From a virus: 50,921 nucleotides of DNA. Made by a program: the position numbers and the translations under genes. Of this stretch, positions 28,871 through 46,792 are shown in pieces. The notes under the pieces are model-generated. The model did not search any database. It saw only the letters and a list, made by a program, of their open reading frames with translations, and was not told where the DNA came from. The stretch is from the IMG/VR virus record IMGVR_UViG_3300032241_001390, positions 1-50,921 of that record; one strand, given 5' to 3'. Every line of letters begins with the position of its first letter. Positions within the stretch are counted from its first letter, which is position 1.

Positions 28871-30004
28871 ATGGCACAGTTACAAACAACAAACTTTTCT
28901 CAAGACGGTTACTTAGCTTTACCCGCAAGTACTACTGGTAACCGTCCAAGTCCAACAGCAGGCATGACACGTTTTAATTCTAGCATGAGTATGTTAGAAT
29001 TTTACGATGGTACTAACTGGCGTCCTGTTAGTGGTATTAGTCAAGGAGCTATTGGAACTGGCGGTGATGATGTTAGAATTATTGATAATAACGTAGTTCA
29101 CTTGTTTACAACCGTACAGTCGACAAGTTTTACTCCGGCATTTACTGGTACTGTTCAAGTATTAGTAGTTGGTGGCGGCGGTAGTGCTGGTTATGATTGG
29201 TCCGGAGGTGGCGGAGGTGGCGGTTTTGTATTCAACCGTTCATTCCCGGTTGTCTCTGGAACTCCTTATCCTGTTACAGTTGGCGGAGGTGGCGCTGGTC
29301 CAGGTCGCGGAGGCGGTAATAGTATTGGTAACAATGGCGCTAACAGCGTATTTTCGTCAATTACTGCTACCGGTGGCGGTGCTGGTGGCGGATGGGCTAC
29401 TCCTCCACAAGGTTATAGTAATCCATACGGCGGCGGTGTAATGGGTAATAGTGGCGGATCTGGAGGTGGCGGTGGTAACACCGGCGATACCGGAGCAGAT
29501 AATCGTCAACGTGTACAATTCGGTGATGGCACATCAGGACAAGGATTCCCAGGAGGATCGGGAGTTCGTTATAACACTTCTAGTGATAATCAACACGCAA
29601 GTGGAGCTGGCGGCGGTGCTGGGGGTCCTGGCGGCGGTGGACAAGATGAACGTCAAGGAGCTTCAAACTATAATGCTAACGGTGGCCCAGGCGCTGCAAG
29701 TGATATTTTAGGTAGCACATGGTATTGGGGAGGCGGCGGTGGCGCCGGCAGCCATCATGGAGCAAGTTTAGGTTCTGGCGGAGTTGGCGGAGGCGGAGGC
29801 GGCAACGTTTATCATGGCGGCCCAACATATCCAAACGGATATATTAATGGAGTTGGAGGCGGACAATCAATTAACGCTGGTAATCCTGGCAGTGGACATC
29901 ATCATGGCGGCGCTGCAGGTTCTAATACTGGCGGTGGCGGTGGTGGAGCACAGCACGGATCAACAGGATCTGGCGGTTCTGGAATTGTTGTTATAAGATA
30001 TTAA
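28871..30004 (+). CDS. Glycine-rich tail fibre adhesin 3
   Basis: A 377-residue third paralogue: T-R-F-N ... Y-D-G-T-N-W-R-P-V module, TVQSTSFTPAFTGTVQVLVV neck, Gly-rich body with GQGFPGGSGVRYN and DILG.TWYWGGGGGAG blocks, a His-rich loop (GSGHHHGG) and SGIVVIRY at the end. Its stop codon overlaps by four bases the stop codon of the convergent first gene of the accessory island, with no terminator visible between them. Confidence 0.75.
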   Translation: MAQLQTTNFSQDGYLALPASTTGNRPSPTAGMTRFNSSMSMLEFYDGTNWRPVSGISQGAIGTGGDDVRIIDNNVVHLFTTVQSTSFTPAFTGTVQVLVVGGGGSAGYDWSGGGGGGGFVFNRSFPVVSGTPYPVTVGGGGAGPGRGGGNSIGNNGANSVFSSITATGGGAGGGWATPPQGYSNPYGGGVMGNSGGSGGGGGNTGDTGADNRQRVQFGDGTSGQGFPGGSGVRYNTSSDNQHASGAGGGAGGPGGGGQDERQGASNYNANGGPGAASDILGSTWYWGGGGGAGSHHGASLGSGGVGGGGGGNVYHGGPTYPNGYINGVGGGQSINAGNPGSGHHHGGAAGSNTGGGGGGAQHGSTGSGGSGIVVIRY

Positions 30005-30735
30005 GTTTTATTAGGATTGTAAGGGCATTTAGCTTCGGCAAATGCCTTATATCTTTCTTTTAAAGGACGCCACCTGTCTTTGTTTTTAATATTCATACAC
30101 ATGATAGTATCGTCCCAAGGTATAGGTTGCTGTTCTAATTTTATTGGAGCATCTGTATAAAATTTAAAATAGGCGATTATGTCGCCTTTTTTGATGACTA
30201 CTTTTTCAGAAGGCGATTTAAATTCGAATACTAGTTCTACAGGCCTTACCCATTTGCTAGGATCATACTGACCAGGAATCATTGAAGTCTTTTGTGTAAA
30301 ATCATTGTGATGTAAAAATGCAGGAAGTAGTTGTACCATCATAGATTCTTCACTTGTAAATGTACACAACCAATCTATTCCAACTAATGGATATGGGCTA
30401 GATCCTTTCTCACCCTTTTCTAAGAACCTAGTATCTATAAGTCTGTTAAAAACATTTTGGTTAATATTTTCACAAAACACACCTACTACGCCGTCTTCTT
30501 TAGTATCTATTTGAATTGTAAGATCGTGGGGAGCAACTAAACCAAAAGTATTTTTTAAAAAATCCGCATTAGCAGGACATTTTAAAAATACTTCCCCCTT
30601 GCGAACTTTATTAACTTCCTTGACTAAACTTACAAATGGATAGTAGTCTTTATCAATCAAGGGAATTATAGAAACCGAATGAGTTATGCCCTCTTCTCGA
30701 GATTCTGTTCCAAATGACCATTTAACTGTTTTCAT
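30001..30735 (-). CDS. Halogenase-island protein of unknown function, paralogue a
   Basis: A 244-residue protein without signal peptide or membrane segment. It aligns by eye with the 247-residue protein on the other side of the adjacent halogenase: both have a central hydrophobic strand ending L-x-P-(S/A)-(W/F), then a P-G-x-x-D stretch, then a strand pair before GDIIAYFKFYTDAP here and GKPLAHFVPLSDK there, and both end with a K-C-P-(F/Y) motif. The jelly-roll-like strand order suggests a cupin-like or DUF6065-like fold; that name is from memory and unverified. The start overlaps the halogenase stop (ATGA), so it is translationally coupled as the last gene of its unit. Confidence 0.55.
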   Translation of the reverse strand: MKTVKWSFGTESREEGITHSVSIIPLIDKDYYPFVSLVKEVNKVRKGEVFLKCPANADFLKNTFGLVAPHDLTIQIDTKEDGVVGVFCENINQNVFNRLIDTRFLEKGEKGSSPYPLVGIDWLCTFTSEESMMVQLLPAFLHHNDFTQKTSMIPGQYDPSKWVRPVELVFEFKSPSEKVVIKKGDIIAYFKFYTDAPIKLEQQPIPWDDTIMCMNIKNKDRWRPLKERYKAFAEAKCPYNPNKT

Positions 30736-32237
30736 GTGTTATTAACTTCTGATATTCTGTCTACTTCACTGCTATGATGTAACCCACCAACACTACGATG
30801 TTTTTCGTTGCGAATATAATTTTTTATTAAAATCTCACGAGCATATTCAGGTGACATCGGTAAATTTCTTGGAGCAACTGGAAATCCCATTTGTATTAAA
30901 ATAGAACTCCAATTTACTCCGTTAAAAATTGTATTAAATCTTCCTCTATAGGACAACGCATTAGTTGATTTTCCCACCAATGCTAAATGGTGTTTCATAC
31001 GTTCGCTTGGAACAAATTTATTTTTTACATAATTCCAAAACGGAGTTGTGCGTTCGTTACGATCATAATGAGCGGATACAAAATCTACACAATCCTCAAA
31101 ATACATTTTCATAGTTTGATTAAAATAATCTGTACTATTTTGATCGTAAAATTGTTCTCTAATTGCGTTATGTACTTGTGTTGCGCCAGTTGTAATTAAG
31201 GCAATACCTGTACTTTCTAAAGGTTCAATGAAGCCTGCGCTTAACCCAACTTGTACAACATTGCCTTTCCATTGATTATTATTATAAAAAGGAGTCCAGT
31301 CTATTACACGAACCTTGTCTTTGCTGATACGATTATTCCAGTAGTTGACAAAGTATTCTTTTGCTTCTTCAGGATCTGTAACATCTCTATTAAACACCAT
31401 ACCACTACCAATCCTACTACTTACTCCAATTTTCCAAATCCAGCCATGATCTACAGCATCACATTCAGCAAATGGTTTAAATTCTTTATCTCTATCTTGA
31501 TATGGAACAGGGCATACTACTGCTGTATTACAAAATAATCGTTCCATTAAATCAACACGGTCCCTATTAGGACTAAGCAAACTCTTGAATCCGGTACAAT
31601 CTATGTATAAATCAGCTTTAACTATTTGTCCATTTTTAAGTTCTAAATGATCGATATCGTCGTTTTCTTTGCGTACAATATCTACAACATCAGAACGAAT
31701 AATGTTTAGTCGATTAAATTGCGCCTCTGCTAATTTATCCTGTATATATTTTACCAATTTACCACAATCTACATGGTACCCGTAGTATCCTACATTTAAT
31801 AAAAACGGATCAACTTTATTTTCATATATAGAAGCGTCATAATTGCCCATGGTGTATTTTTTAAAATCAAGATCTTGATTTAAAGTCCACAAATCGTGTA
31901 CGTATACATCAATAGGATACTCGGCATCGGCAGGCAATACTTTATTGCCTTTATAAAAAGGATGCCATAGTTCATTACCCGGTTTAGTCCAGTTAGTAAA
32001 AAGAATTCCTGCTTTATAACCTGAATCAATTTTAGGAAACCACTCCTTAATATCGAACCCACACTCGTCTAAAAAATCTTTAAAATTAATTAAAGTAGCT
32101 TCTCCTACTCCGATAGGTGTACCTACTTCTTTATCAACAACTGTTACAACTAGTTCTGGATTATTTTTATGTAAGTATGCCGCAGTCATCCAACCGCTTG
32201 TTCCGCCACCTACAATTACTATATGTTCTACTTTCAT
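30732..32237 (-). CDS. Flavin-dependent (tryptophan-type) halogenase homologue H1
   Basis: A 501-residue protein, the length of PrnA/RebH-type halogenases, which use FADH2, O2 and halide to chlorinate or brominate aromatic substrates. Residues 8-16 carry the FAD dinucleotide motif (IVGGGTSGW) and 43-48 the second flavin motif (GVGEAT). K75 in GYKAGILFTNW aligns with PrnA catalytic Lys79. The GWIWKIG segment at 265-271 corresponds to W-x-W-x-I-P, but Pro is Gly here. E341-S-T-G aligns with the PrnA Glu346 halide/catalytic motif. Alone among the five homologues here it keeps E-S-T-G. Four-base overlaps join it to both unknown-function paralogues, so the three are probably made together. Substrate unknown. 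Confidence 0.85.
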   Translation of the reverse strand: MKVEHIVIVGGGTSGWMTAAYLHKNNPELVVTVVDKEVGTPIGVGEATLINFKDFLDECGFDIKEWFPKIDSGYKAGILFTNWTKPGNELWHPFYKGNKVLPADAEYPIDVYVHDLWTLNQDLDFKKYTMGNYDASIYENKVDPFLLNVGYYGYHVDCGKLVKYIQDKLAEAQFNRLNIIRSDVVDIVRKENDDIDHLELKNGQIVKADLYIDCTGFKSLLSPNRDRVDLMERLFCNTAVVCPVPYQDRDKEFKPFAECDAVDHGWIWKIGVSSRIGSGMVFNRDVTDPEEAKEYFVNYWNNRISKDKVRVIDWTPFYNNNQWKGNVVQVGLSAGFIEPLESTGIALITTGATQVHNAIREQFYDQNSTDYFNQTMKMYFEDCVDFVSAHYDRNERTTPFWNYVKNKFVPSERMKHHLALVGKSTNALSYRGRFNTIFNGVNWSSILIQMGFPVAPRNLPMSPEYAREILIKNYIRNEKHRSVGGLHHSSEVDRISEVNNT

Positions 32238-32977
32238 GATTTACCTCCAAACGGGCATTTACTTTTAGTTTGTTGTATTTTTTTAATTTTTTGATAAGAC
32301 GATAAAAAACTAGGCATTCCCGGTTCCATAATTCTAGATATATTTGCGTCGTCTTTGCCTATAAAATGCAATTTTATTTCAACTTCTTTATCTGACAACG
32401 GTACAAAATGTGCTAAAGGTTTGCCTGCCGGCCATTCATATCTTCTTTCGGGTAGTAAAAACGTATTTACATTTGTTGCGTGTTGGTAAGTAAAGTCAAT
32501 TATTCCTGGAGGAGTATGCATTCCTGTTATTTCATTAGGCATATTCCACGATGGTTGTAAAAATAAAAACTTAACTCCTGTTTTTTCTTGTATACGCCAC
32601 GGTGTGTGTATCTTAGCGTGTGTATATTTTTTAAATTCGTTGCCTCTTTGATTATCATCGTGATAACCTATCGATCCTGAACTATCAGCAAAATGATAAA
32701 CAAATCCTTTTTCGTCGGATTCTATAATTAAATCGGTCCACAACGGCATAACAAATCCGTGATTGTAAAGTCCTATTAATCCTTCGCAACGTTTCATAGT
32801 TCCACGAGGAATTCTTAAACCATGTTCATTTTCTGACATGTACATATTTGGTAAACTTTTCCACCAATCAGGTAAAAATCTACTAGCTTCTTTTATAGGA
32901 AAAAGCTCATAAGAATTAGGATGTGTTGTAAAACAATCTACAACAATTTTACTTCTTTTAAAAAATATATCAAACAT
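32234..32977 (-). CDS. Halogenase-island protein of unknown function, paralogue b
   Basis: A 247-residue protein starting DIFFKRSKIVVDCFTTHPN, followed by ASRFLPDWWKSLP, then RIPRGTMKRCEGLIGL and VMPLWTDLIIES. The C-terminal half has LFLQPSWNMP, TPPGIIDFTYQHATNVN, RYEWPAGKPLAHFVP and a terminal KCPFGG. The parallels with the protein at 30001-30735 make the pair paralogous although overall identity is low. I recall similar proteins beside phage halogenase genes (possibly DUF6065), unverified. The strand pattern suggests a beta-barrel. It overlaps the downstream halogenase start by four bases. Function unknown; a substrate-presenting partner of the halogenase is a speculation from coupling. Confidence 0.55.
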   Translation of the reverse strand: MFDIFFKRSKIVVDCFTTHPNSYELFPIKEASRFLPDWWKSLPNMYMSENEHGLRIPRGTMKRCEGLIGLYNHGFVMPLWTDLIIESDEKGFVYHFADSSGSIGYHDDNQRGNEFKKYTHAKIHTPWRIQEKTGVKFLFLQPSWNMPNEITGMHTPPGIIDFTYQHATNVNTFLLPERRYEWPAGKPLAHFVPLSDKEVEIKLHFIGKDDANISRIMEPGMPSFLSSYQKIKKIQQTKSKCPFGGKS

Positions 32978-32978
32978 A

Positions 32979-33566
32979 TTAGAGTCTCAAAAGTGCTAGT
33001 TTAAAAGTGTTTACATCACCGCTTAACCATGAATTAAATGCTATACTATATCGAACTGGAGTATTAGCATCTGCCGCTTCTACCTCGTGCTCCAGTTCAC
33101 TAGGCCACATTAATAACAACCCAGGTTCAGGCGCGATTTCCCATACTTCTGAATTAAAATAATTATAGTCAGTCATATCGTATTTGATTTGATTATATGA
33201 TCTGCGAACAAATCTAATCTTAGCAGGGTGATAATCAAAATACACACATCCACTTATTATACTATTAGCGTGTGAATGCCTTGGGTGAGCTTGAGCAGGA
33301 TAATTTTTATTAGCCACACTAGTAGTCATATTGATTTTACAGTCTGGACTTGCCCGTAGTTCTCGATAAAAAAACTGCTCCATATGAAACATGATTTGAG
33401 TTTTTAAAGATTGCCAAACAGTTTGATCCAGTAAAAAATTATCCCGACTCATGTGATGCCCATGACTCTCTTCCCAGTCGACGCTTTCTAAATTTGGACA
33501 AGAACTTACGTCTATTTTAGTAGAATAGACAGGAGTTGAAAATAAAGGTATAGTTACATAATCCAT
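32979..33566 (-). CDS. 2OG-Fe(II) oxygenase-like protein (2OG-FeII_Oxy_5 type) A
   Basis: A 195-residue protein starting YVTIPLFSTPVYS, the opening typical of the 2OG-FeII_Oxy_5 (PF13759-like) family. The metal-binding segment is H97-S-H99-A-N-S-x-x-S-G-C-V-Y-F; a distal H160 in ELEHEV and R172 in VRYSIAFNSW match the later His and the 2-oxoglutarate-binding Arg. A canonical H-x-D is not visible at the first position. It is the promoter-proximal gene of the minus-strand unit ending with halogenase H1, one base before the next gene. Target unknown. Confidence 0.7.
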   Translation of the reverse strand: MDYVTIPLFSTPVYSTKIDVSSCPNLESVDWEESHGHHMSRDNFLLDQTVWQSLKTQIMFHMEQFFYRELRASPDCKINMTTSVANKNYPAQAHPRHSHANSIISGCVYFDYHPAKIRFVRRSYNQIKYDMTDYNYFNSEVWEIAPEPGLLLMWPSELEHEVEAADANTPVRYSIAFNSWLSGDVNTFKLALLRL

Positions 33567-33621: not shown

Positions 33622-34203
33622 ATGATAATAAAAGATAACTTTTTGCCTAAACCATTATTTGATCAACTTCAGAATCAAGTATTGTCTGCAGATTTTCCCT
33701 GGTATTATTCTGCTCAAGTTTCTTTACCACCAGGCCAGTTTAATTTCTTAGATCCTTTAGCCAAAGAAACAGACGGTTTTAATCATAGAACATACGATAG
33801 AGAAGATTCAAACATGAGTTTTTTCTTTCAACAATGTAGGCCTTTTTTTGAATGTGTGGCTAGAGAATTTGGATATACTCATGAAAAATTAATCAGAGCT
33901 CGATTTAGCATGAAACATCCTAGAGTTGGCTGGAAAGAAGAATATTATAACTTGCCACACGTGGATTATTTTTATCCGCACGATACTATAATTTATTATC
34001 TCAACGATAGTGATGGCGACACACGAATTTTTGAAGAATTTTTTACTGGATTTCCTGAAAAAGATTTGTTTAAAACACAACAGCGTATAAAGCCAGTTGC
34101 TAATAGATTAGTACTATTTAACGGCCTTCAATATCACACTGCCGCGAATCCAATAGAAAGTACAAGACGTGTTATTTTTAATATTAATTTAGATCCATTA
34201 TGA
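33622..34203 (+). CDS. 2OG-Fe(II) oxygenase (prolyl-4-hydroxylase-like) B
   Basis: A 193-residue single-domain oxygenase with a complete facial triad: H113-V-D115 in LPHVDYFYPHDTIIYYLND, distal H172 in LQYHTAANP and R182 as likely 2-oxoglutarate-binding residue ten residues later. DSDGDTRIFEE after the first motif is the usual P4H-type strand. Its closest relative in the window is the minus-strand oxygenase at 39167-39817, sharing PHVD, YYxxDSDGDT and the FNGxxYHxxxxPI block. Such enzymes hydroxylate proteins or small molecules. First of four coupled plus-strand genes; its stop overlaps the next start (ATGA). Confidence 0.8.
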   Translation: MIIKDNFLPKPLFDQLQNQVLSADFPWYYSAQVSLPPGQFNFLDPLAKETDGFNHRTYDREDSNMSFFFQQCRPFFECVAREFGYTHEKLIRARFSMKHPRVGWKEEYYNLPHVDYFYPHDTIIYYLNDSDGDTRIFEEFFTGFPEKDLFKTQQRIKPVANRLVLFNGLQYHTAANPIESTRRVIFNINLDPL

Positions 34204-34829
34204 TAGTAGACAATTTATTTCCAGTACCAATAGCAACTATAATGATCGAAGAAGAGATCATAGACAACACCATGAATAAACTAAAAGAGTTTTTAATGGA
34301 CGAAAATAATAAAAAATATGTATCAAGAAGACCAGATGAAGGCAGTCTTCTTACTACATATTATGCCGATGATAAACAGGATTTACTTGGCAAGTTAAAT
34401 GATAAAATGTTAATGGCTGTAATTAATGACGAAGCTAGGCAATTTTTAAAATTGCTAGGTATAGACCCCGAATGTCACGTTAATATTACAACATGGATGC
34501 AGCTAAATCCGCCAGGTTCGCTATTTAACAAACACGAACATTTTGGAGCATTGTTAAGCGGAGTGATTTATTTAGACGTTGCTGATAATTGTGGAGATTT
34601 AACTTTCTTTAATCCTGTTCCATTAAAAACACAAAATTTAGCCTATGTTAATCGAGTATTAAAACAAGACGGCAATTTTTATAATTTTGAAACAGTTAAA
34701 TTTACTCCCAAGAAAGGCAAGATGATTATGTTTGAATCATATTTGCAACACGCTGTGGGTGTTAACTTATCTAATAAAGATAGGTTTGCTATTTCATTTA
34801 ATATACAGGTAGCGCCAAATGAATGTTGA
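34200..34829 (+). CDS. 2OG-Fe(II) oxygenase-like protein (2OG-FeII_Oxy_5 type) C
   Basis: A 209-residue protein opening VDNLFPVPIATI. It has a family-typical W...NPPGSLFNKH112-E-H114-FGALLSGVIYL core, CGDLTFFNP, then a FTPKKGKMIMFESYLQH184AVG block with distal His and R195 in DRFAISFNI. The first motif is H-x-H rather than H-x-D, so the carboxylate ligand cannot be assigned by eye. The reading frame overlaps both neighbours (4 and 11 bases), indicating tight co-translation. Activity and substrate are not predictable from sequence. Confidence 0.7.
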   Translation: MIVDNLFPVPIATIMIEEEIIDNTMNKLKEFLMDENNKKYVSRRPDEGSLLTTYYADDKQDLLGKLNDKMLMAVINDEARQFLKLLGIDPECHVNITTWMQLNPPGSLFNKHEHFGALLSGVIYLDVADNCGDLTFFNPVPLKTQNLAYVNRVLKQDGNFYNFETVKFTPKKGKMIMFESYLQHAVGVNLSNKDRFAISFNIQVAPNEC

Positions 34830-35403
34830 AATGTGGTTTCCCGTAAGTATCTATAGTGAAAAAGAATTGTTTTCAGCTGAACAAAATAAACTATGGACTG
34901 ACTATATACTAAATTTAAAAACTACAGTACCTAGCGCACATAATAACTGGCAAGGCGGTACATACACTACGCATGAATCTAGAGAATATTACCTTAAATC
35001 GGACCCTATGTTTGCCTCACTAGTAGAAAAAATTACTGATCGTGTAAATTCATTTGCTAGAAAACATGGATGCGATGGTATATATGAATGTCAACACGCA
35101 TGGATAAATGTTGCCGACAGTAATAATTTTCAAGAATTTCACACACATAACGGAAGTATTTTTAGTCTAGTATACTATGTTTCTGCGCCAGAAGGTTCTG
35201 GACGAATTTTATTTGAAGATCCTAAAGAACCCGATATGATGCCTTTAAAGAGTATCAAACATGATAGTCCATTAAGTTATCAGCGTATACACTATAAAGC
35301 AGAAGAAGGATGTGTTATTATTTTCAGATCTTATCTTAGACACATGGTAGAGCCTGGTACAAATATCACTCCTAGAATATCTATATCAATGAATTTTGGC
35401 TAG
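34819..35403 (+). CDS. 2OG-Fe(II) oxygenase-like protein (2OG-FeII_Oxy_5 type) D
   Basis: A 194-residue protein starting EMWFPVSIYSEK. The core is W-I-N-V-x7-Q-E-F-H108-T-H110-NGS, followed by LVYYVSAPEGSGRILFEDP, EEGCVIIFRSYLRH175 and R186-ISISMNFG. This is the best match in the window to the PF13759 pattern. As in its relatives, the first motif is H-x-H. The start overlaps the preceding gene by 11 bases. Probable iron/2OG enzyme of unknown target. Confidence 0.72.
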   Translation: MNVEMWFPVSIYSEKELFSAEQNKLWTDYILNLKTTVPSAHNNWQGGTYTTHESREYYLKSDPMFASLVEKITDRVNSFARKHGCDGIYECQHAWINVADSNNFQEFHTHNGSIFSLVYYVSAPEGSGRILFEDPKEPDMMPLKSIKHDSPLSYQRIHYKAEEGCVIIFRSYLRHMVEPGTNITPRISISMNFG

Positions 35404-35404
35404 T

Positions 35405-36031
35405 ATGTTTAATTTATTTGAGCTTAATGACAATCTTGATATTAAAACTGAAATATTTGATAATTCTAAAATCTATATAATAGACGATTTTTACAAATAT
35501 CCGGATGAAATAGCCGCTCACTTGTTTATAGATGTGCCGGCTAAATTGTGGAAAGCAGAAGACCGCCCATCGTTTAATGGCGAACATTTTATTGATCAGC
35601 GACACGATTTTAAAGATACTGGAGTTGTTGACGCTGAAAAATTATTATCTAATTTGTGCGGACAACCAATTAGTAGTTCTGAAAAAATAGTTACAAACTG
35701 TATACAACTTTTTAACAAGGAATTTAATGATTATAAAAATAATTATTGGTGCCCGCATACTGATTATGGGTATAACGGCATTGTATACTTAAATACTTTT
35801 GATTTTCTAGGCACTAATTTATACGAACAAATTGATAGAGACATAAACAATACTCCTGAACATTACGCTCCTTGGAGATCTCGTAGCAAATATCGTGTAA
35901 TTAAAACACTAGAAGCAAAATTTAATCGTTTAGTTTTATTTGACGGTGCTCATTTTATACACGGAATGAGTATAGAAGATGATACTTTTTTTAATCTAAA
36001 GAGGATTAATCAAGTATTTTTCTTTAATTAG
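35405..36031 (+). CDS. DUF6445-type 2OG oxygenase-like protein E
   Basis: About 208 residues from ATG 35405; a TTG at 35396 would add three residues, but it overlaps the previous stop and lies outside the conserved start. The pattern C-P-H118-T-D120-YGYNGIVYLN, then GTNLYEQ, PWRS, FNRLVLFDGAHFIHGMSI (H183 or H186) and R-I-N-Q-V-F-F-F matches what I recall of DUF6445, a 2OG-oxygenase-like family found beside tryptophan halogenase genes in Proteobacteria. H-x-D, distal His and late Arg are all present. It closes the plus-strand unit; its stop overlaps that of the convergent halogenase H2 by four bases. Confidence 0.7.
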   Translation: MFNLFELNDNLDIKTEIFDNSKIYIIDDFYKYPDEIAAHLFIDVPAKLWKAEDRPSFNGEHFIDQRHDFKDTGVVDAEKLLSNLCGQPISSSEKIVTNCIQLFNKEFNDYKNNYWCPHTDYGYNGIVYLNTFDFLGTNLYEQIDRDINNTPEHYAPWRSRSKYRVIKTLEAKFNRLVLFDGAHFIHGMSIEDDTFFNLKRINQVFFFN

Positions 36032-39170: not shown

Positions 39171-39817
39171 AATGTCTCAAAATCAAAATTAATTACTATT
39201 CTTGTGCTGTATTTTATAGGATAATTTCCAGCATGGTATCTGTGCCCATTAAAAAATAATCCCACACCTTTTTTCGGAGTAACACGCAACAATTCAGTTA
39301 ATGGTTCTTCGAATAACGGATTAAATGGACCTTGGGATGTTTCATACATTTTATCGAATAAAATTGTATCACCATCGCTATCATCTACATAATATACTAA
39401 TGTAGAGTACGGAGCAGACGTACTAAAATCTACGTGAGGTGCCGCGTACTTTGTATCATCGTGCGCTATACTAGGATGTGTATATCTTAATCGAATACGC
39501 ATCAATTTTCCTATTTTAATTCCAGTTTTTTCTGAAAAGAATTCTAATACCATCCTAAAAAAATCAAAATGTACTGATTTAGGTTCAGAGTCAAATGCTA
39601 AATGATATAGCCCTACATCATCTGTGATATTTTTATCAGGATATACTGGAGTTGTTCCCCTTGGAAATGCTAATGGATTACCTACTCTGTGAATAGTAAA
39701 CCAGGGAAAATAATTTTCTCCTTGTAATTTATCAATTATGCCGTCTTGAAAACTTTTAGGAATAACGTTTTCTATAATCAAAATCTCATCGGCGATATTA
39801 GATATTTTATAATCCAT
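39167..39817 (-). CDS. 2OG-Fe(II) oxygenase (prolyl-4-hydroxylase-like) I
   Basis: A 216-residue oxygenase with a full triad: H128-V-D130 in AAPHVDFSTSAPYSTLVYYV, DDSDGDTILFDK, H195 in GHRYHAGNYPIKYS and R206 in TRIVINFDF. It is the closest relative of oxygenase B (33622-34203), from which it differs in orientation and in an extended loop between the metal motifs. Overlaps of 11 bases with halogenase H3 upstream and 4 bases with the fusion downstream show translational coupling. Confidence 0.8.
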   Translation of the reverse strand: MDYKISNIADEILIIENVIPKSFQDGIIDKLQGENYFPWFTIHRVGNPLAFPRGTTPVYPDKNITDDVGLYHLAFDSEPKSVHFDFFRMVLEFFSEKTGIKIGKLMRIRLRYTHPSIAHDDTKYAAPHVDFSTSAPYSTLVYYVDDSDGDTILFDKMYETSQGPFNPLFEEPLTELLRVTPKKGVGLFFNGHRYHAGNYPIKYSTRIVINFDFETL

Positions 39818-41354
39818 TTTTTGCCCTAATATTTCTAAAATATTCTATAAATTCTTTATATGTAGCGTGTTGTTTACTTTCTCTAATAAACTGGTCTTGA
39901 CTATTATAATAAAACTGAGCGGCTATATTACTTAGCGGAGCATCTTCTCCGGGCACTATCATATTAATTTCTTGTTTTGCTATATCTTTATCTATATGGC
40001 CAATACCATTTAACACCCAGGACCATAATGACCATCCGGTGCCTCCCCAGTAATCAGGAAAATCTCGTAATGTAGGAATTCTCGATTTAAGCATTTCTAA
40101 TCGATCAGCAACATAATCAGTCTTAGTTACACCAGTGCCAATATATCTCCAAAATTCACTATCATCTCTTCCACCCATATAGTGTGCGTTTACAAAATTC
40201 ATGAATTCATCGTGTGTATACGCACATCTTGCGTTGTAAGTATTCATGCTTCCCGTGTTTACTGTTTGATCCATTGTAGGTTTTAAATATTCGAATACAA
40301 AGTTTTTAAGAGTTACAATAGTACCATGAATACTAGTAGCTTCTAACGGCTCGATAAATGACGCAGACAGCCCGATAGCAAGGCAGTTATTAACCCATTG
40401 TTTTTCCTGTCTTCCTGATTCAAACTTAATAAGTTTAACTGGTTCTATCTCACACCCTAATGTTTGTTCTATCTCAGCATGAGCTTGATCAGGAGTTGTA
40501 AAACTATCACAAAATACATATCCACACCCGAGCCTATCCATCAAAGGAATTTGCCACATCCAACCGCATTTTTGTGCCCAAGCATGAGTCCAAGGAGCAG
40601 GAGTTTCACCTTCTTTGTATTTTAATAAAAATGGCATTCCTGTATTAATAGGAAGATGCTTCCTGTAACTAACCCAACTGTTAGGCATCTTACTCATTAA
40701 TAATCTAGAAAGCCCTGTACAGTCAATAAAAAAATCGCCTTCTACGTTAGTGCCATCGGTTAATGTTACACTTTTAATGAACCCATTTTCGCCAACATTT
40801 ACATTAGTAATTTTATTGTCTATATGTTTAACATACGGGCTCTTGAGACATATTTTTTTAAAATATTTTCCAACTAAGTGAGCATCTACGTGCATGGCGT
40901 GACGAATATCTTCAAATTTTCCCTTGTTTAAATCAAAGTTAGAAAGCCCGTTATTAATCCAATAGCCTAATCTAGAAAGTTTAATAAGATCTTTATCTGA
41001 CAAATTGTTTACACCCCATGAAAACAAAGCATCGGGTGTACTAGTAGCAGTAGCAGTACCGTCCAAAGGAGCAATATAAGATTGATTTATATCCTTAGTC
41101 CAACCTGTATGTTTAATGGCGTATTTTAATGTAGCACCAGTTTCTGCTATGAACTCTTCATGATCACAACCGAAATCCCACAGATGATTTGTTAATATGT
41201 CGGTGAATACTCCTGTAGTACTTTCTCCTACACCTACTACTGGAATTTCGGAAGTTTCAATAACCGTTACATTGTGTTCGCCGGGTCTGTATTTGCTAAC
41301 AAACAAAGATGCTAGCCAACCTGCTGTGCCTCCTCCGACAATTACTATGTTCAT
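39807..41354 (-). CDS. Flavin-dependent halogenase homologue H3
   Basis: A 515-residue halogenase-type flavoprotein. IVGGGTAGW (5-13) and VGVGESTTG (40-48) are the flavin motifs; K77 in ATLKYAIKHTGW aligns with catalytic Lys79 of PrnA. The W-x-W-x-I-P motif is intact (GWMWQIP) and is followed by GCGYVFCDSFTTPDQA. The catalytic Glu motif is E338-A-T-S. It overlaps the upstream halogenase H4 by four bases (ATGA), so two full-length halogenases are translated in tandem from one mRNA, possibly with different regioselectivity or as a heteromer. Substrate unknown. Confidence 0.84.
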   Translation of the reverse strand: MNIVIVGGGTAGWLASLFVSKYRPGEHNVTVIETSEIPVVGVGESTTGVFTDILTNHLWDFGCDHEEFIAETGATLKYAIKHTGWTKDINQSYIAPLDGTATATSTPDALFSWGVNNLSDKDLIKLSRLGYWINNGLSNFDLNKGKFEDIRHAMHVDAHLVGKYFKKICLKSPYVKHIDNKITNVNVGENGFIKSVTLTDGTNVEGDFFIDCTGLSRLLMSKMPNSWVSYRKHLPINTGMPFLLKYKEGETPAPWTHAWAQKCGWMWQIPLMDRLGCGYVFCDSFTTPDQAHAEIEQTLGCEIEPVKLIKFESGRQEKQWVNNCLAIGLSASFIEPLEATSIHGTIVTLKNFVFEYLKPTMDQTVNTGSMNTYNARCAYTHDEFMNFVNAHYMGGRDDSEFWRYIGTGVTKTDYVADRLEMLKSRIPTLRDFPDYWGGTGWSLWSWVLNGIGHIDKDIAKQEINMIVPGEDAPLSNIAAQFYYNSQDQFIRESKQHATYKEFIEYFRNIRAKNGL

Positions 41355-42898
41355 ACAGTTTCCTTATAAATGTTTTTTGCTAAGAATTCATACATAGTAG
41401 GAGCATCTTTAGCCAATTCTTTCCAAGACAATTTATTGTTATTAGGAATTAAAAATTCTTTGTAATCTCTAGCACCGGGATTATACGCTCTGAGAGTAAT
41501 TATGTCGCAGGGATTATAGCCCATGCCAGCTCCGATACAATTCATTCCGCCAAACGTATCTGGCATAGCAAAATCATTATATCTTGCTATGGCATTTTTT
41601 TTGAATTCGTCTACTAAACTTGTTTGAAAAGTAGGTAATGTTTCTGAATAGCATCTTCTAAGATTAGCTCTCCAGTATTCTGTATCGTCACGAACGCTCA
41701 GTGCGTAGTGCATAGCAACGAATTCTGTGAATTCTCTAAAATTCTTTTTACAAGCAAGATTAAACGAGTCTATTTCAAATCGGCCAACACGTTCTCTCGA
41801 TAGTGCTCTTACGATATGTGTTAAAAACCTATGAACGGTATACAAACCATTAGATTCTAGGGGTTCAATGAACCCTGCGCTAAGGCCTATTGCACATACG
41901 TTCTTCACCCAAATGCGCTCGTGCATTCCTATACGCATTGTAATGTCTTTAAATTCTAAGTTAGAAGTATCAAAACCTTTACTATTCAAATGATCAACAA
42001 ATTCTTGTTTAGCATCTGCTGGAGTAGTATACTTGTCACTATACACATACCCTGTACCAATTCGGCTCCATAGAGGTATATTCCATACCCAACCATTTCC
42101 CAGTGCTGTACAATTTGTAAACGGCTCTACTTGATTTGGTTTATCTGTATACTGTACCTTTGTCGCCCACGCACGGTTATTAGGCAGTATGTCTGAAAAA
42201 CTGTTAAACGGCTCTTTAATAGTCTTGTCTAACAACAAACTCTTAAACCCAGTACAATCGATATACAGATCACCAGTTACAGTAGTACCATTTTCTAATA
42301 AAAGATCAGTCACTCCATTTTCGTCAGAGTTAATGTTTACAACATTAGATTGTATAAAATTAAAATTATCTTCTTCACAAAATTTTCTAAGCCATATAGC
42401 AAACTTTGCCGCATCGAAGTGAAATGCAACATGGTGTAGCGTTGTTTCGGGCAATTTTTTAATAGTTTCTTTACAGAACTTGTTATCGTTAACTAATGCC
42501 ATTAAAGGATAATATTCTTCAGCAAATTCGCTATTAGGAGTTTCTGGCATCAGAGCCTTTTTAACGTGCCAGTCGTTCATTCCGACTTTAGTACCTTTTA
42601 GATATGGTACTCCAAAAGGATAATGGAATCCTCCATCACCATTTTTATAAAAATTTTCAAACCTAATACTTAGTTTATAGGTAGAATCACACGCTTCCAT
42701 GAAGTCTGTATCTTTAATGCCCAATAATGTTAACCAATCTTGTATTCCACCGATCGTACTTTCTCCCACTCCTACGGTAGGAACGTCAGGGCTTTCGATT
42801 AGTGTAACTTTTTTGTAAGGAAACAAGTGTACAAAAGTTGCGGCGCTCATCCATCCCGCACTTCCGCCTCCTACTATAACAATATTATCGATTTTCAT
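41351..42898 (-). CDS. Flavin-dependent halogenase homologue H4
   Basis: A 515-residue halogenase-type flavoprotein, first gene of the minus-strand unit H4-H3-oxygenase I-fusion. IVGGGSAGW (8-16), VGVGESTIGG (42-51) and K75 in STYKLSIRFENF fit the PrnA-type scaffold. GWVWNIP is an intact W-x-W-x-I-P motif, followed by TGYVYSDKYTTPADA. The Glu motif is E348-S-N-G: Glu and Ser kept, Thr changed to Asn. An AGGA site precedes the ATG on the minus strand. It shares its length with H3 but differs clearly in sequence, so the pair is an old duplication or two separate acquisitions. Confidence 0.84.
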   Translation of the reverse strand: MKIDNIVIVGGGSAGWMSAATFVHLFPYKKVTLIESPDVPTVGVGESTIGGIQDWLTLLGIKDTDFMEACDSTYKLSIRFENFYKNGDGGFHYPFGVPYLKGTKVGMNDWHVKKALMPETPNSEFAEEYYPLMALVNDNKFCKETIKKLPETTLHHVAFHFDAAKFAIWLRKFCEEDNFNFIQSNVVNINSDENGVTDLLLENGTTVTGDLYIDCTGFKSLLLDKTIKEPFNSFSDILPNNRAWATKVQYTDKPNQVEPFTNCTALGNGWVWNIPLWSRIGTGYVYSDKYTTPADAKQEFVDHLNSKGFDTSNLEFKDITMRIGMHERIWVKNVCAIGLSAGFIEPLESNGLYTVHRFLTHIVRALSRERVGRFEIDSFNLACKKNFREFTEFVAMHYALSVRDDTEYWRANLRRCYSETLPTFQTSLVDEFKKNAIARYNDFAMPDTFGGMNCIGAGMGYNPCDIITLRAYNPGARDYKEFLIPNNNKLSWKELAKDAPTMYEFLAKNIYKETV

Positions 42899-42946: not shown

Positions 42947-43540
42947 ATGACCACAGAAAATAATTCATTCATCGAACTAGGGTATCTTGAAAATCCGGCT
43001 ATTTGTGATCTTTTGATTAATTTACACAAACAAAGTGATAGCAAAGGTCCGCCTTATTTTGTTGCTAATGGAGTTAACGTAAAATGCGATCCTTCCAAAA
43101 AAGATTCTACAGATTTTACAGTTTACAACCATAATGAATATGAAGAAATTAAAGTTTATATAGAACAATTGCAAGTTTTGGTAGAAAAATATATCGAAAA
43201 ATACAAATATTGTAACAGCGGTAATCCGTGGGCTATTATAGAACCTATTAATATACAACACTACGCTCCTGGACAAGGATATCATGCTTGGCATTATGAA
43301 AGAACTACTAATGACTTGCCATACGCTACAAGACATTTAGTTTTTATGACATATCTTAATGATGTTACAGATGCTGGAGAAACTGAATGGTTTTATCAGA
43401 ACTTAAAAATTCAACCAAGGAAAGGCTTAACTGTGCTATGGCCGGTTGACTGGACGCACACTCACCGAGGTGTAACTTCACCTACACAAGAAAAATACAT
43501 CATAACAGGATGGTTTAATTACATGGATAACACAAAATGA
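42947..43540 (+). CDS. 2OG-Fe(II) oxygenase J
   Basis: A 197-residue oxygenase. The metal motif is H116-Y-E118 in GYHAWHYERT (H-x-E variant), followed by RHLVFMTYLNDVTDAGETEW, the usual P4H-type strands. The distal His is H171 or H173 in DWTHTHRGV, and K183 in QEKYIITGWFNY stands where Arg usually binds 2-oxoglutarate; Lys occurs there in some families. It begins the second plus-strand unit and overlaps the short halogenase H5 by four bases, an intimate oxygenase-halogenase coupling. Target unknown. Confidence 0.78.
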   Translation: MTTENNSFIELGYLENPAICDLLINLHKQSDSKGPPYFVANGVNVKCDPSKKDSTDFTVYNHNEYEEIKVYIEQLQVLVEKYIEKYKYCNSGNPWAIIEPINIQHYAPGQGYHAWHYERTTNDLPYATRHLVFMTYLNDVTDAGETEWFYQNLKIQPRKGLTVLWPVDWTHTHRGVTSPTQEKYIITGWFNYMDNTK

Positions 43541-44727
43541 AAAAAGTAGCAGTAATCGGAACTGGAACAAACGGCATAACTTCTTTAGCGCATTTACTTG
43601 CGTGGCTGCCACCAGATGAATGGCAGGTAGTATCTATATACGATCCAAAAATTCCTATGTTAGGCATAGGAGAAACAGCAACATCATCTGTTCCCCAGGC
43701 ATTGTTCTACGGTGCCGGCCTAAACTTCTTTACAGATACAGACGAACTGGACGTTACAATTAAACAAGGGACAAAGTACACTAATTGGCGAGATAAAGAA
43801 CACATGGCTGTGTTCCCAGTTCCTAATTATGGAATACATTTTAATAATTTTAAATTAAAAGATGTATGTTTTCCTAGATTTAAAAAGAAATGGGGCAATA
43901 AGTTTGTATCTATAGAAGGAACGTTATCGGATATTCAAAATTTGCCCGATAAAGTTACTTGTAAAGTCGATGATGTTGAATATGAATTTGATTATATTGT
44001 AGATTGCGGCGGCTACCCTACTAACTATGACGAGGATTATATAACTGTTGATACTATCCCTGTCAATCATGCCTTGATTAATATGGTTCAAACTCCAGGA
44101 GATTGGAACTATACACATCACTGGGCACATCCTAATGGTTGGATGTTTGGTATTCCTTTAAAAACACGTCAAGGATGGGGATACTTGTACAATGATAAAA
44201 TTACTTCTAAAGAAGAAGCAATAAAAAACTTTAGTGAAATTAGAGGCATACCAGCAGATAAACTAATCACCAATGAATTTGCCTTTAAAAATTATAAAGC
44301 TAAGAAATTTATTGATAACAGAATTGTTAAAAACGGTAACAAAGCATTATTCTTTGAACCAATCGAAGCGTTAGCTGGCTGGTTTTATGATCAGATATTA
44401 AGAACATGGTTTGATTATGCTGTAATTAATAAGTTTACAGAAGAGCAAGCTAATGCCAACTTACACGATTTTGCGGTAGATCATGAACTAGCAATATGCT
44501 ACATTTATCACGGAGGTTCTACATTTGATTCTGAATTTTGGAAAACCACTGTAGAAAAATGTAGTAAAAAACTAGCAACTAGCGATAAGTGGAAATTTAA
44601 TTTAGAAGTATTAAAAAAAGTTAAGCCTGAATTGTACGCAAGTGCGCCGGCAATATACCCGTTTCCATATGCAGTTTGGAACCACTTTGACGAAGGGTTA
44701 GGTTACAATTATTTTTCGACCAAGTGA
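43537..44727 (+). CDS. Short flavin-dependent halogenase homologue H5
   Basis: A 396-residue protein, about 100 residues shorter than H1-H4. The flavin motif is V-I-G-T-G-T-N-G (6-13), with a single rather than triple Gly start; LGIGETAT (42-49) is the second motif. K76 in TIKQGTKYTNW aligns with PrnA Lys79. W-x-W-x-I-P reads WMFGIP. The Glu motif is E277-A-L-A, so both halide-contacting Ser and Thr are absent. Phage halogenases of this family are known (VirX1 of a marine cyanophage was reported to iodinate varied substrates), but whether this short form is active cannot be judged here. The C-terminal substrate-binding region is reduced. Confidence 0.72.
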   Translation: MKKVAVIGTGTNGITSLAHLLAWLPPDEWQVVSIYDPKIPMLGIGETATSSVPQALFYGAGLNFFTDTDELDVTIKQGTKYTNWRDKEHMAVFPVPNYGIHFNNFKLKDVCFPRFKKKWGNKFVSIEGTLSDIQNLPDKVTCKVDDVEYEFDYIVDCGGYPTNYDEDYITVDTIPVNHALINMVQTPGDWNYTHHWAHPNGWMFGIPLKTRQGWGYLYNDKITSKEEAIKNFSEIRGIPADKLITNEFAFKNYKAKKFIDNRIVKNGNKALFFEPIEALAGWFYDQILRTWFDYAVINKFTEEQANANLHDFAVDHELAICYIYHGGSTFDSEFWKTTVEKCSKKLATSDKWKFNLEVLKKVKPELYASAPAIYPFPYAVWNHFDEGLGYNYFSTK

Positions 44728-44766: not shown

Positions 44767-45387
44767 ATGGCTAACAATGACGGATTAACATTAGATTCTA
44801 GCGATAATTTTACTGAATCTACAGATTTATCAAATACTAAACTAGCAACTTTAGATATTTTATCAATAAACAAAGCAGATATATTTACAGCAGACGATTG
44901 CGATAAAATTATAAAAAGCTGTATAGAAGAACTATGGTTGTCTTCTAAAGTGATTGGAGATAAAAAATTACACGCATCTAAACGTCAAAAATTGCGCGGA
45001 GAAGTCGAAGGATTTCCATTCGAACCAATTAGATCAATTACTAAATCAGCAAATGACCAAATTTATGATTTTAAATTGCTAGGAATTATTGATCAAGATT
45101 TTCCACAAGTGTTTAAGTATGAGGAAAAAGATCATTATGATTGGCATATTGAGCTAACTCCTGTAGCTCCTTCGAGAAAACTTACATTTATTGTAAATTT
45201 GTCAGATCCTTCGACGTATGAAGGCGGGCAACTTGAATTTTTAAATACAGAAACAGATCCTGTATTGATGAATTCACAAGGAGGATGTGTTGTATTTCCT
45301 TCGTTCTTATCTTATAGAATTAAACCAGTTACAAAAGGTACAAAGTATATCATTATTGGAAATGTACACGGAGCATTATTTAGATGA
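44767..45387 (+). CDS. 2OG-Fe(II) oxygenase-like protein K lacking the distal His
   Basis: A 206-residue protein with a polar N-terminal 30 residues, then a PKHD/PiuC-type oxygenase domain: W-H127-I-E129 in YDWHIEL, LTFIVNLSDPSTYEGGQLEF and VVFPSFLSYRIKPVTKGTKY. In relatives this last block is FPS-x-x-x-H-x-V-T-P-V-T-x-G-x-R-Y; here Y183 stands in the iron-ligand His position and K193 in the Arg position. The adjacent gene L keeps both. K may be catalytically dead, or a partner subunit of L. Preceded by TTTTTAGGAG. It overlaps L by four bases. Confidence 0.75.
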   Translation: MANNDGLTLDSSDNFTESTDLSNTKLATLDILSINKADIFTADDCDKIIKSCIEELWLSSKVIGDKKLHASKRQKLRGEVEGFPFEPIRSITKSANDQIYDFKLLGIIDQDFPQVFKYEEKDHYDWHIELTPVAPSRKLTFIVNLSDPSTYEGGQLEFLNTETDPVLMNSQGGCVVFPSFLSYRIKPVTKGTKYIIIGNVHGALFR

Positions 45388-46187
45388 TATTGCCGTATAA
45401 TTATTGGTATTTTATCTCAGCTATTCCGCCACAAGTTTGTGATCAGATAGTTGAGTATGGTCTATCAATGATGTATGATCTTGAAAATCAATTTGGATCA
45501 CAAGTCACTGACGCTACTACAGGTGATATGAAACAAAAAGGTGGTGAAATTTATACAGGTGGCACTGCTTCTACAGTATCAACATCTAAATTTACAATCG
45601 ACGGATTAAAGAAAAAAGGAATTAAACCAGAAGAATTGTATATTAGAGATTCTAAGGTTGTATTCTTAGATAATAAATGGTTATATGAATTAATGTGGCC
45701 GTTTATTAAACAAGCAAATAAAGATGCCGGATGGAATTTCCAATGGGATTTTACTGAAAGATTTCAATTCACCAAGTACGGACCTGATCAGTTTTACGGT
45801 TGGCACGCCGATGCCGGTATGTATCCGTATTCTATGATCGATGATAAAACAGAATATCGTAAAAATCCAGACGGTTCGGACATGACAGACCCTATGGGTA
45901 ATAAAATTCCGGTAAGGATGGATATTGTTGATAACCTTGACATGGTAGGCAAGATAAGAAAAATAAGTACAACATTAAGTTTAAATGATCCGGCTGAGTA
46001 TAAAGGCGGTAATCTTCGCTTTGACTTGGGTCCTCACCGCGGTGAACGTTATCATACTTGTACTGAAATTCGTCCTCAAGGCTCGGTAATCGTATTTCCA
46101 TCGCACGTTTACCATCAAGTGACACCGGTAACAAAAGGTATAAGATACAGTTTAGTATCTTGGAGTTTAGGAAAACCATGGCAATAA
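45384..46187 (+). CDS. 2OG-Fe(II) oxygenase (PKHD-type) L
   Basis: A 267-residue prolyl-4-hydroxylase-like enzyme with an intact active site: H141-A-D143 in FYGWHADAGMYP, RKISTTLSLNDPAEYKGGNL, distal H244 in VFPSHVYHQVTPVTKG and R254 in GIRYSLVSW. Residues 155-185 form a hydrophilic insertion (DPMGNKIPVRMD) between the metal motif and the next strand. It is paralogous to gene K, with which it overlaps, and probably arose with it by duplication. Likely hydroxylates a protein or peptide side chain; target not known. Confidence 0.8.
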   Translation: MILPYNYWYFISAIPPQVCDQIVEYGLSMMYDLENQFGSQVTDATTGDMKQKGGEIYTGGTASTVSTSKFTIDGLKKKGIKPEELYIRDSKVVFLDNKWLYELMWPFIKQANKDAGWNFQWDFTERFQFTKYGPDQFYGWHADAGMYPYSMIDDKTEYRKNPDGSDMTDPMGNKIPVRMDIVDNLDMVGKIRKISTTLSLNDPAEYKGGNLRFDLGPHRGERYHTCTEIRPQGSVIVFPSHVYHQVTPVTKGIRYSLVSWSLGKPWQ

Positions 46188-46792
46188 TATTACCAGAACA
46201 ATTTAAAGAAAACAAGTACTTAGATCTTAAAAGTGTTATAACCAAAGATATTTGTAAAATTGTGACCAAATATGCGTTGCTACAAGAAGTAACTGAATTT
46301 GATCCCGAGTTAGGCGAAACTGCTCAAGTAGCAAACGCACATTCTAAGTACGCCGATACTTTAATGGAAACGTTGCTTCATTTTTTACAACCTATAATGG
46401 AAAAAAATACAGGCTTAGAATTGTGCCCTACATATAGTTATTATCGTGTATATCACCCAGGGATGACCTTAGCTCACCATATAGACCGTCCTAGTTGTGA
46501 GATAAGTACTACTGTATGTTTTGGTATAAACTATACAGATACTGACCCAGATTATAGATGGGGAATGTACGTAGATTCTGGTATTTTATGTAAACAAGAT
46601 CCGGGCGATATTATTGTTTATAGAGGCTGTGACGTAGATCACTGGCGTGACGAGTTCAAAGCCGGCCCAGGAAGCTATCAAGTACAAGGTTTTTTCCATT
46701 ATATAAATAAAGACGGTCCGTACTATCCAGCGTATGCCTATGATAAACGCCCCGGTTTAGGATATAAAGATTCAAACAGGCTAAATAACTAA
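46178..46792 (+). CDS. 2OG-Fe(II) oxygenase M
   Basis: About 204 residues from ATG 46178, chosen because TAGGAA lies five bases upstream; a TTG six codons earlier is less likely. The metal motif is H101-I-D103 in LAHHIDRPSCEIS, followed by a W-G-M-Y-V-D strand and PGDIIVYRGCDVDH155W with the distal His. The usual Arg is not found in its expected place (SYQVQGFFHY), so the 2-oxoglutarate anchor is uncertain. It overlaps gene L by ten bases and is the last gene of the island, 21 bases before the tail assembly chaperone, which is on the same strand. Confidence 0.72.
   Translation: MAIILPEQFKENKYLDLKSVITKDICKIVTKYALLQEVTEFDPELGETAQVANAHSKYADTLMETLLHFLQPIMEKNTGLELCPTYSYYRVYHPGMTLAHHIDRPSCEISTTVCFGINYTDTDPDYRWGMYVDSGILCKQDPGDIIVYRGCDVDHWRDEFKAGPGSYQVQGFFHYINKDGPYYPAYAYDKRPGLGYKDSNRLNN

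Follow-up and report, generated by a model that had tools for sequence, protein, structure and literature searches.

A phage gene island of flavin-dependent halogenases and oxygenase-like proteins located beside glycine-rich tail-tip genes

The window analyzed in this study is a 50,921-base fragment of a viral genome (IMG/VR record IMGVR_UViG_3300032241_001390). At positions 30001-46792 it carries an island of 19 open reading frames (ORFs), numbered g01-g19 by coordinate, that encode only three classes of proteins: five flavin-dependent halogenases (FDHs), twelve proteins of the oxygenase type, and the pair g01 and g03, which resemble dUTPases in predicted fold. Glycine-rich (Gly-rich) tail-tip ORFs are located on one side of the island and a tail assembly chaperone on the other; this location, together with the likeness of the Gly-rich ORFs to gp38 and Pam3 gp24, places the island inside a host-recognition module. 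Our leading explanation, offered tentatively, is that the island may be an oxidative tailoring module that modifies phage tail proteins, above all the neighboring Gly_rich_2 tips.

Composition and conservation of the island

Pfam and PHROGs profile searches of all 19 proteins confirmed the ORFs and families of the initial annotation, which had described five halogenases, twelve oxygenase-like proteins, and two unknowns. The tight packing of the genes was also correct, the interval being 99% coding, but the near-total overlap by 4-21 bases was not: overlaps were found at 13 of the 18 junctions and span 4-28 bases each. The genes of the island are as follows.

30001-30735, minus strand: g01, dUTPase-fold-like protein, phrog_17480 (AlphaFold2 mean pLDDT 86; best PDB fold matches are dUTPases)
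30732-32237, minus strand: g02, FDH with K75, E338, and WIWKIG (PF04820, E 2e-89)
32234-32977, minus strand: g03, dUTPase-fold-like protein, phrog_7084 (AlphaFold2 mean pLDDT 74; dUTPase fold matches)
32979-33566, minus strand: g04, PF13759 oxygenase, HxH...H at 97, 99, 160 (E 1e-14)
33622-34203, plus strand: g05, 2-oxoglutarate (2OG)-Fe(II) oxygenase, HxD...H...R at 113, 115, 172, 183 (PF13640, E 9e-6; phrog_274, E 4e-34)
34200-34829, plus strand: g06, PF13759 oxygenase, HxH...H at 112, 114, 184 (E 3e-19)
34819-35403, plus strand: g07, PF13759 oxygenase, HxH...H at 108, 110, 175 (E 7e-20; PDB 3bvc and 2rg4, E 5e-12 and 2e-11)
35396-36031, plus strand: g08, DUF6445-like oxygenase, HxD...H at 121, 123, 189 (PF20043, E 4e-5; phrog_1644, E 2e-32)
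36028-37494, minus strand: g09, FDH with K76, E323, and WMFNIP, in the core of the island (PF04820, E 1e-95)
37506-38141, plus strand: g10, PF13759 oxygenase, HxH...H at 114, 116, 189 (E 3e-18)
38121-39170, minus strand: g11, oxygenase domain (108, 110, 165) fused to DUF6817 (PF20680, E 2e-19; PF13640, E 1e-5)
39167-39817, minus strand: g12, 2OG-type oxygenase, HxD...H at 128, 130, and 192 or 195 (phrog_274, E 1e-22)
39807-41354, minus strand: g13, FDH with K77, E335, and WMWQIP (PF04820, E 7e-92)
41351-42898, minus strand: g14, VirX1-like FDH with K75, E345, and WVWNIP (PF04820, E 3e-107; VirX1 6QGM, E 6e-96)
42947-43540, plus strand: g15, 2OG-Fe(II) oxygenase, HxE...H at 116, 118, 171, absent from contig G002 (PF13640, E 2e-10)
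43537-44727, plus strand: g16, short divergent FDH with K76, E274, and WMFGIP, in its own deep clade (PF04820, E 4e-26)
44767-45387, plus strand: g17, oxygenase-like protein, HxE with the distal His replaced by Tyr (PF13640, E 2e-10; dN/dS 0.08)
45384-46187, plus strand: g18, PKHD/PiuC-like 2OG-Fe(II) hydroxylase, HxD...H at 141, 143, 244 (PF13640, E 7e-12; PDB PiuC 9ghl, E 2e-4)
46160-46792, plus strand: g19, oxygenase, HxD...H at 107, 109, 161 (phrog_2954, E 2e-40)

All five FDHs (g02, g09, g13, g14, and g16) belong to the Trp_halogenase family (PF04820; phrog_2928) with E-values from 4e-26 to 4e-140, and their PF04820 scores are 92-360 bits against a curated cut-off of 21. The GxGxxG motif for FAD, the catalytic Lys (K79 in PrnA), and the Glu corresponding to E346 in PrnA are present in all five proteins and invariant among the orthologues of each. 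The WxWxIP motif had also been attributed to all five, but its strict form was found only in g13 and g14, with WIWKIG in g02 and WMFxIP in g09 and g16. Thus, the island FDHs share the fold family, the GxGxxG motif, and the catalytic Lys and Glu with the tryptophan halogenases PrnA, RebH, and Thal but differ from them in the departures of g02, g09, and g16 from WxWxIP and in having no natural-product pathway around them. In the phylogenetic tree, the five FDHs occupy five different clades. These clades are separate and ancient and have been kept side by side. The pattern suggests non-redundant enzymes retained over a long time, with some genes gained or lost at the edges of the set. Protein g14 lies within a 27-row clade that also holds VirX1 (100/99); it is 37% identical to VirX1 and is not its sister, and the other four FDHs fall outside this clade. 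Published halogenase activity exists only for VirX1, a relative of g14, on non-native substrates (PMC8407142).

Every one of the twelve smaller proteins matches an oxygenase-type model from Pfam or PHROGs, with g12 and g19 matching through PHROGs families only and g08 mainly through DUF6445 and phrog_1644. The description of all twelve as 2OG/Fe(II) oxygenase-like therefore holds for family membership, and an HxD/E...H motif was found in seven of them (g05, g08, g11, g12, g15, g18, and g19). It fits less well for four proteins with HxH...H of the PF13759 type (g04, g06, g07, and g10) and for g17. For the HxH group, the second position of the aligned motif is occupied by His in the PDB relatives (3bvc and 2rg4) as well. 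In g17 the HxE is kept and a Tyr is aligned where g18 has the distal His; this protein is nonetheless under purifying selection. The iron site of g17 is doubtful, and the protein, which may lack the usual mode of iron binding, is not classed here as an active 2OG-Fe(II) oxygenase; judged by the motifs, an ordinary 2OG hydroxylase function cannot be taken for granted for g17 or for the HxH group.

The paralogy of the two unknowns, g01 and g03, was borne out as a distant one by profile comparison (hhalign probability 65%, E 6e-5); close paralogy was rejected, as blastp shows none. For the AlphaFold2 models of both proteins, all top PDB fold matches are dUTPases, with moderate scores that fall short of a confident full match (E 6e-4 to 9e-3, target TM 0.4-0.67). 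Inspection of the alignment revealed only segments similar to the catalytic motifs III and IV, motifs II and V being not evident. Because the five catalytic motifs are not all present, g01 and g03 are termed dUTPase-fold-like on the basis of these models, not dUTPases. The g01 gene was found in nearly all islands of the lineage. A homologue of g03 directly follows the paired FDHs in syn9, Syn10, and S-RIM44, so the g03-type protein is a recurrent companion of halogenases.

The island is conserved in related contigs. An independent contig, G002 (IMG/VR 3300032265_001977), is collinear with the window over the entire shared length and retains the order and strand of 18 of the 19 island genes, g15 alone being missing; the arrangement is therefore more than chance. 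The 18 shared genes, including g17, are 71-86% identical and have dN/dS values of 0.03-0.21, which are rough since synonymous sites are near saturation. About 24 IMG/VR contigs (each counted once, some nearly identical) contain 3-5 FDHs together with 4-13 oxygenases. The usual order in these contigs is g19-g18-g17-...-g13-g12-g10-g09-...-g07-g06-g05-...-g02-g01, at ~50% identity and with the same strand changes. A core of 12 genes (g19, g18, g17, g13, g12, g10, g09, g07, g06, g05, g02, and g01) is arranged in the same order and on the same strands in the majority of the lineage contigs. The genes g03, g04, g08, g11, g15, and g16 are variable, and g14 sits elsewhere in most relatives, as a separate branch. 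The earlier view of a dedicated, coupled cluster and not scattered genes is supported by this synteny at ~50% identity across many contigs and by the five FDH clades found side by side; the two outcomes that the initial annotation named as refuting it did not occur, as catalytic sites are mostly intact by sequence and the homologous loci are clustered. To judge from these relatives, the cluster is not special to the phage of the window.

The G+C content is 0.32-0.37 in the island versus ~0.37-0.41 across most of the window. In the comparison with G002, dS is mostly 1.3-2.4 in the island and ~0.8-1.2 in the tail genes, and A+T is also higher in the island, which may have been inherited or exchanged separately from its flanks.

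Linkage to Gly-rich tail-tip genes

The flanks of the island, to which the initial annotation did not link it, are the best guide to its function. Upstream of the island, fiber-sized ORFs of 2801 and 3623 aa (phrog_9851), a protein with an S74 chaperone domain, and three paralogous Gly_rich_2 ORFs (28-33% Gly) were found. Downstream, the island is followed by the tail assembly chaperone, GroEL/GroES, a NUDIX hydrolase, and a sheath-stabilizer-like ORF. The Gly-rich tip ORFs (26614-30004) and the chaperones are as follows.

26614-27741, plus strand: Gly-rich tail-tip/adhesin-like protein 1, 28% Gly, candidate substrate (PF21722 Gly_rich_2, E 3e-16; phrog_2295 and phrog_863, tail fiber assembly)
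27754-28857, plus strand: Gly-rich tail-tip/adhesin-like protein 2, 33% Gly, candidate substrate (PF21722, E 1e-12; composition)
28871-30004, plus strand: Gly-rich tail-tip/adhesin-like protein 3, 31% Gly, candidate substrate (PF21722, E 4e-11; composition)
46814-47266, plus strand: tail assembly chaperone bordering the opposite end of the island (PF16778 Phage_tail_APC, E 4e-14; tail fiber assembly PHROGs)
47325-49292: phage-encoded GroEL and GroES, downstream of the chaperone

By PF21722 matches and composition, the three Gly-rich ORFs carry a Gly-rich domain with GGGGxGG runs and are located beside fiber and chaperone genes. In Pam3 gp24 and S16 gp38, Gly-rich domains with GGGGxGG form variable receptor-binding tips, and the folding of Pam3 gp24 needs a neighboring chaperone (PMC9608196). 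The window thus resembles the S16/PP01 gp38 and Pam3 gp24 systems in having such ORFs beside a tail assembly chaperone, but differs from them in that no accompanying FDHs or oxygenases are reported in the available part of that source (PMC9608196). By analogy, the Gly-rich ORFs of the window are candidate receptor-binding fiber tips. In marine "metaviromic islands", Fe(II) oxygenases recur with tail-fiber and gp38 genes and have been classed with host recognition (PMC3909814).

The same neighborhood was found in isolated phages. In syn9, Syn10, S-WAM1, S-RIM44, Sf-CH11, S-H38, and HTVC008M, Gly-rich ORFs adjoin an FDH and/or oxygenase cluster or are located within ~8 kb of it. The protein CPUG_00131 of Syn10 is VirX1 itself (PDB 6QGM; identical save for the start residue), and its gene is clustered with that of a second FDH, a g03 homologue directly after VirX1, and at least nine oxygenase-like ORFs. 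This cluster is directly downstream of Gly-rich ORFs (22-35% Gly) and fiber genes. The earlier statement that marine T4-like phages carry single halogenases is thus an undercount, as smaller clusters are present in isolated cyanophages, the VirX1 locus of Syn10 among them. The Syn9/Syn10 locus is similar to the island in combining FDHs, a g03 homologue, and oxygenases beside Gly-rich and fiber genes, with g14 falling in the wider clade of VirX1. It differs in that it belongs to a Kyanoviridae genome, has two FDHs and not five, is encoded entirely on one strand, and yielded no g01; the literature searched does not describe this locus as a module.

Two comparisons were made across larger sets of sequences. 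The first covered 68 IMG/VR loci with a length of 9 kb or more. A Gly-rich ORF was found in 31 of the 49 loci with at least three oxygenases versus 3 of the 18 without any (p 0.0009), and in 15 of 26 versus 3 of 18 when the lineage of the window is left out (p 0.012), both counts ignoring kinship. A sample blind to FDHs consisted of 16 long contigs picked by two major capsid queries. FDHs are present in only two of these, G013 and G014, at four per contig; in either contig, three Gly_rich_2 ORFs are located no more than ~2 kb from the cluster, with a fiber-sized ORF of ~2515 aa beyond them. Gly_rich_2 was found in 2 of the 14 remaining contigs versus both contigs with FDHs (p 0.05). The islands consist of 4 FDHs, 11 oxygenases, and 1 dUTPase-fold protein in G013 and of 4, 7, and 2, respectively, in G014. 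Gene order differs between these islands and that of the window, and identity to the genes of the window is only 21-44%; an island of the same composition has therefore been maintained, or assembled anew, at the same position despite deep divergence. In total, the adhesin linkage, which recurs in several lineages, is well supported but not overwhelming.

Possible functions of the island

For some fifteen years, the halogenases and oxygenases of phages have been interpreted as auxiliary metabolic enzymes. If the island instead tailors tail proteins, its enzymes would be produced inside the infected cell, where the FDHs would use halide and FADH2 supplied by a host reductase. The FDHs would halogenate aromatic residues (Trp, Tyr, His) of phage tail proteins, and the Fe(II)/2OG-type oxygenases would hydroxylate other residues, e.g., Pro, Asn, Asp, and Lys. 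Modified in this way, the tips might bind receptors through a chemistry that is wider than, or tuned beyond, that of the twenty amino acids. A possible role of g01 and g03 is that of trimeric subunits for docking or for presentation of the substrate. Modification of tail proteins is favored because it accounts for the location of the island, the number of enzymes (many positions), the two chemistries, the absence of pathway and transport genes, and the recurrence of the module.

Several observations weigh against such a function. The neighborhood of tail fibers is also where plastic cargo genes land, and the locus counts given above ignore phylogeny. In S-B64, P-SSM2, and Syn1, the FDHs are not near Gly-rich ORFs, and many oxygenases of syn9 and HTVC008M are located elsewhere in the genome. 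Rotation of gene order in syn9, HTVC008M, and G001, a related record described below, gave ~6-13% each, with a combined p of only moderate strength (0.03, treating the three genomes as independent). No free flavin reductase was found in the window. The T4-type late promoter TATAAATA was found 2 times versus 9.3 expected by chance; since TATAAATA is rarer than expected and not enriched, co-expression with virion genes through such promoters is unsupported.

An auxiliary metabolic function has been the published view: prnA has been interpreted as antibiotic protection (PMC2984593, PMC9964418), and drawdown of 2OG has been connected with NtcA (PMC3037559). The enzymes would then act on small molecules of the host (free tryptophan or other aromatics, lipids, 2OG) for nitrogen signaling or a protective halogenated compound, and their proximity to tail genes would reflect accumulation of cargo. 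The acceptance of many small aromatics by VirX1 (PMC8407142) and the distance of some FDHs and oxygenases from tail genes are consistent with this. Nevertheless, we consider it unlikely, as a single metabolite or a 2OG drain would seem to call for fewer enzymes than the twelve diverse oxygenases and five FDH clades retained together under purifying selection, and the trio of FDHs, oxygenases, and dUTPase-fold proteins recurs beside Gly-rich tips in different lineages. The island also contains no transporter or other pathway gene, and profile searches found no match to a nonribosomal peptide synthetase, polyketide synthase, or precursor of ribosomally synthesized peptides among the 19 proteins or the flanking ORFs; the initial annotation had likewise considered a classical natural-product pathway unlikely. 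Gene build-up without a common pathway, in which selfish or lineage-specific paralogues accumulate in a hyperplastic region by duplication and recombination and act singly, would explain the variable gene content (g15, g16, g11, g08, g04, and g03), the changing place of g14, and the synonymous divergence and A+T above those of the flanks. It seems improbable given the order and strand of the 12-gene core, kept in most lineage contigs at ~50% identity, the purifying selection on all shared genes, and the presence of just three protein classes.

Two other classes of target can be considered. The enzymes could remodel the host surface, altering outer-membrane proteins, glycans, or receptors in favor of superinfection exclusion or the free release of progeny, with the linkage to tips arising from co-inheritance with receptor specificity. 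The g18 protein resembles the PKHD hydroxylase PiuC, and bacterial PiuC is encoded beside TonB receptors; the linkage to receptor-binding genes and the metaviromic islands (PMC3909814) point in the same direction. On the other hand, both enzyme classes need cytosolic cofactors, and reading of the sequences by eye, with no signal predictor, showed no obvious export signal in the proteins examined, which means that modification of an exported surface target would have to precede its export; this explanation is improbable as well. Modification of nucleic acids, with bases or nucleotides halogenated or hydroxylated for evasion of restriction and the dUTPase-fold proteins as nucleotide-binding partners, appears very unlikely. 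The models of g01 and g03 match dUTPases, and oxygenases from other families modify DNA in phages and eukaryotes, but the g01/g03 alignment shows no evident dUTPase motif II or V, and the oxygenases of the island belong to PF13640, PF13759, and DUF6445-like families, with no TET/JBP family found in the Pfam scan. Additionally, the island contains no thymidylate synthase, nucleotide kinase, or glycosyltransferase, and its context is that of late tail genes, not DNA metabolism.

Returning to tail-protein modification, the genome setting of VirX1 suggests where to seek its native substrate. VirX1 has an open active site and a wide scope, including bulky substrates and many small aromatics, and no biosynthetic cluster was listed for it (PMC8407142). 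It is conceivable, though we hold this with more reserve than the function proposed for the island, that tailed phages chemically diversify Gly-rich receptor-binding tips with halogen and hydroxyl groups added by halogenases and oxygenases of their own, and thus recognize hosts with amino acids other than the standard twenty, in which case the native substrate of VirX1 would be a tail protein. The linkage to tips provides a concrete candidate substrate, also for this structurally solved enzyme. If true, this would add a novel type of protein modification in phages that bears on host-range change, in parallel with the known diversity hot spots in host-recognition genes, and a source of halogenases that naturally accept proteins. 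The enzyme families are individually known in marine phages, and paired prnA genes (PMC3037559) and sets of up to 24 oxygenases (PMC9602691) have been published. In the literature searched, which covered only part of the field, a module that joins FDHs, oxygenases, and dUTPase-fold proteins beside Gly-rich adhesins was not found described; such a module would be categorically new if modification of tips were shown.

Phage lineage, related loci, and individual proteins

A related 152.8-kb IMG/VR record, G001, contains the same island together with genes for a T4-type portal, major capsid, DNA polymerase, and gp46-like protein. In the major capsid protein, G001 shares 67-71% identity with Sinorhizobium phage Phosso, Vibrio phage 2.275.O, PA5oct, and GAP32, and the last ORF of the window resembles the sheath stabilizer of the Phosso/PA5oct/GAP32 group. 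Because of these two similarities, the lineage is assigned to an uncultured branch of T4-superfamily jumbo phages, and the genome of the window phage is probably larger than 200 kb. The lineage thus resembles jumbo phages of the RaK2/GAP32/PA5oct/Phosso type but differs from Phosso and PA5oct, which have no FDH or oxygenase in the regions examined. As to the host, no tRNA genes were found in the window, no relative of g09 was confirmed among GTDB contigs, and the nearest phage matches of the window GroEL (~54% identity) are uninformative. This GroEL is 68-88% identical to the GroEL proteins of the island relatives and ~54% or less to those of other phage-collection records; the phage GroEL/GroES may help to fold large or Gly-rich tail proteins. 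A tblastn search with one Gly-rich ORF returned no matches, due to low-complexity masking.

FDHs were also found outside such islands. Lone short halogenases of the g16 type, without oxygenases, are located beside giant ORFs of ~2150 aa in another group of viral contigs (L111, L104, L100, L102, and similar loci). A solitary g13-type FDH (54% identical) was found in loci L094/L095 in another phage context, near a GroEL-sized ORF of 555 aa and with no oxygenases; this locus is possibly a reduced form of the island.

The large oxygenase sets of S-SCSM1 (24 genes) and S-CREM1 (ten plus prnA) are similar to that of the island in combining PF13640 and PF13759 and in the low identity between paralogues (PMC9602691, PMC9964418). 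They differ in being genome-wide sets interpreted as metabolic, and no adhesin-linked island with multiple FDHs has been described there. A role of the oxygenases as packaged virion enzymes was rejected, as the 45 virion proteins of S-SCSM1 include no protein named as an oxygenase (PMC9602691). The similarity of g18 to PiuC and other PKHD-type hydroxylases (E 2e-4 to PiuC structures) spans only 69 residues, and g18 differs from them in its phage setting. For a link between DUF6445 and TonB receptors, nothing relevant was found in the literature searched. The C-terminal DUF6817 domain of g11 (38121-39170; phrog_20220), joined to the oxygenase domain, may be a second enzyme; relatives of this protein are present in G002 and the L115/L136 contigs.

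Four PHROGs families matched by oxygenase-like proteins with HxD...H (phrog_274, phrog_2954, phrog_3531, and phrog_1644) bear the labels "DNA endonuclease V", "ferrochelatase", and "minor coat protein". The first two are the names of the families through which g12 and g19 match, "ferrochelatase" being the misleading label of g19. These names were ruled out as functions, since the oxygenase motifs are kept; the families are probably mislabeled, and such labels may mislead automatic phage annotation.

Two further observations were made. In the Pelagibacter phage HTVC008M (L168, 7562-9557), csgF, csgG, and csgB-like curli genes, an unusual cargo, are located near two oxygenase genes. Two small ORFs of the window (5006-5733; G002:C1:46226-46953) are 97-99% identical between the two contigs with dS of 0.04-0.10, the dS of their neighbors being near 1, which looks like recent recombination in the tail region.

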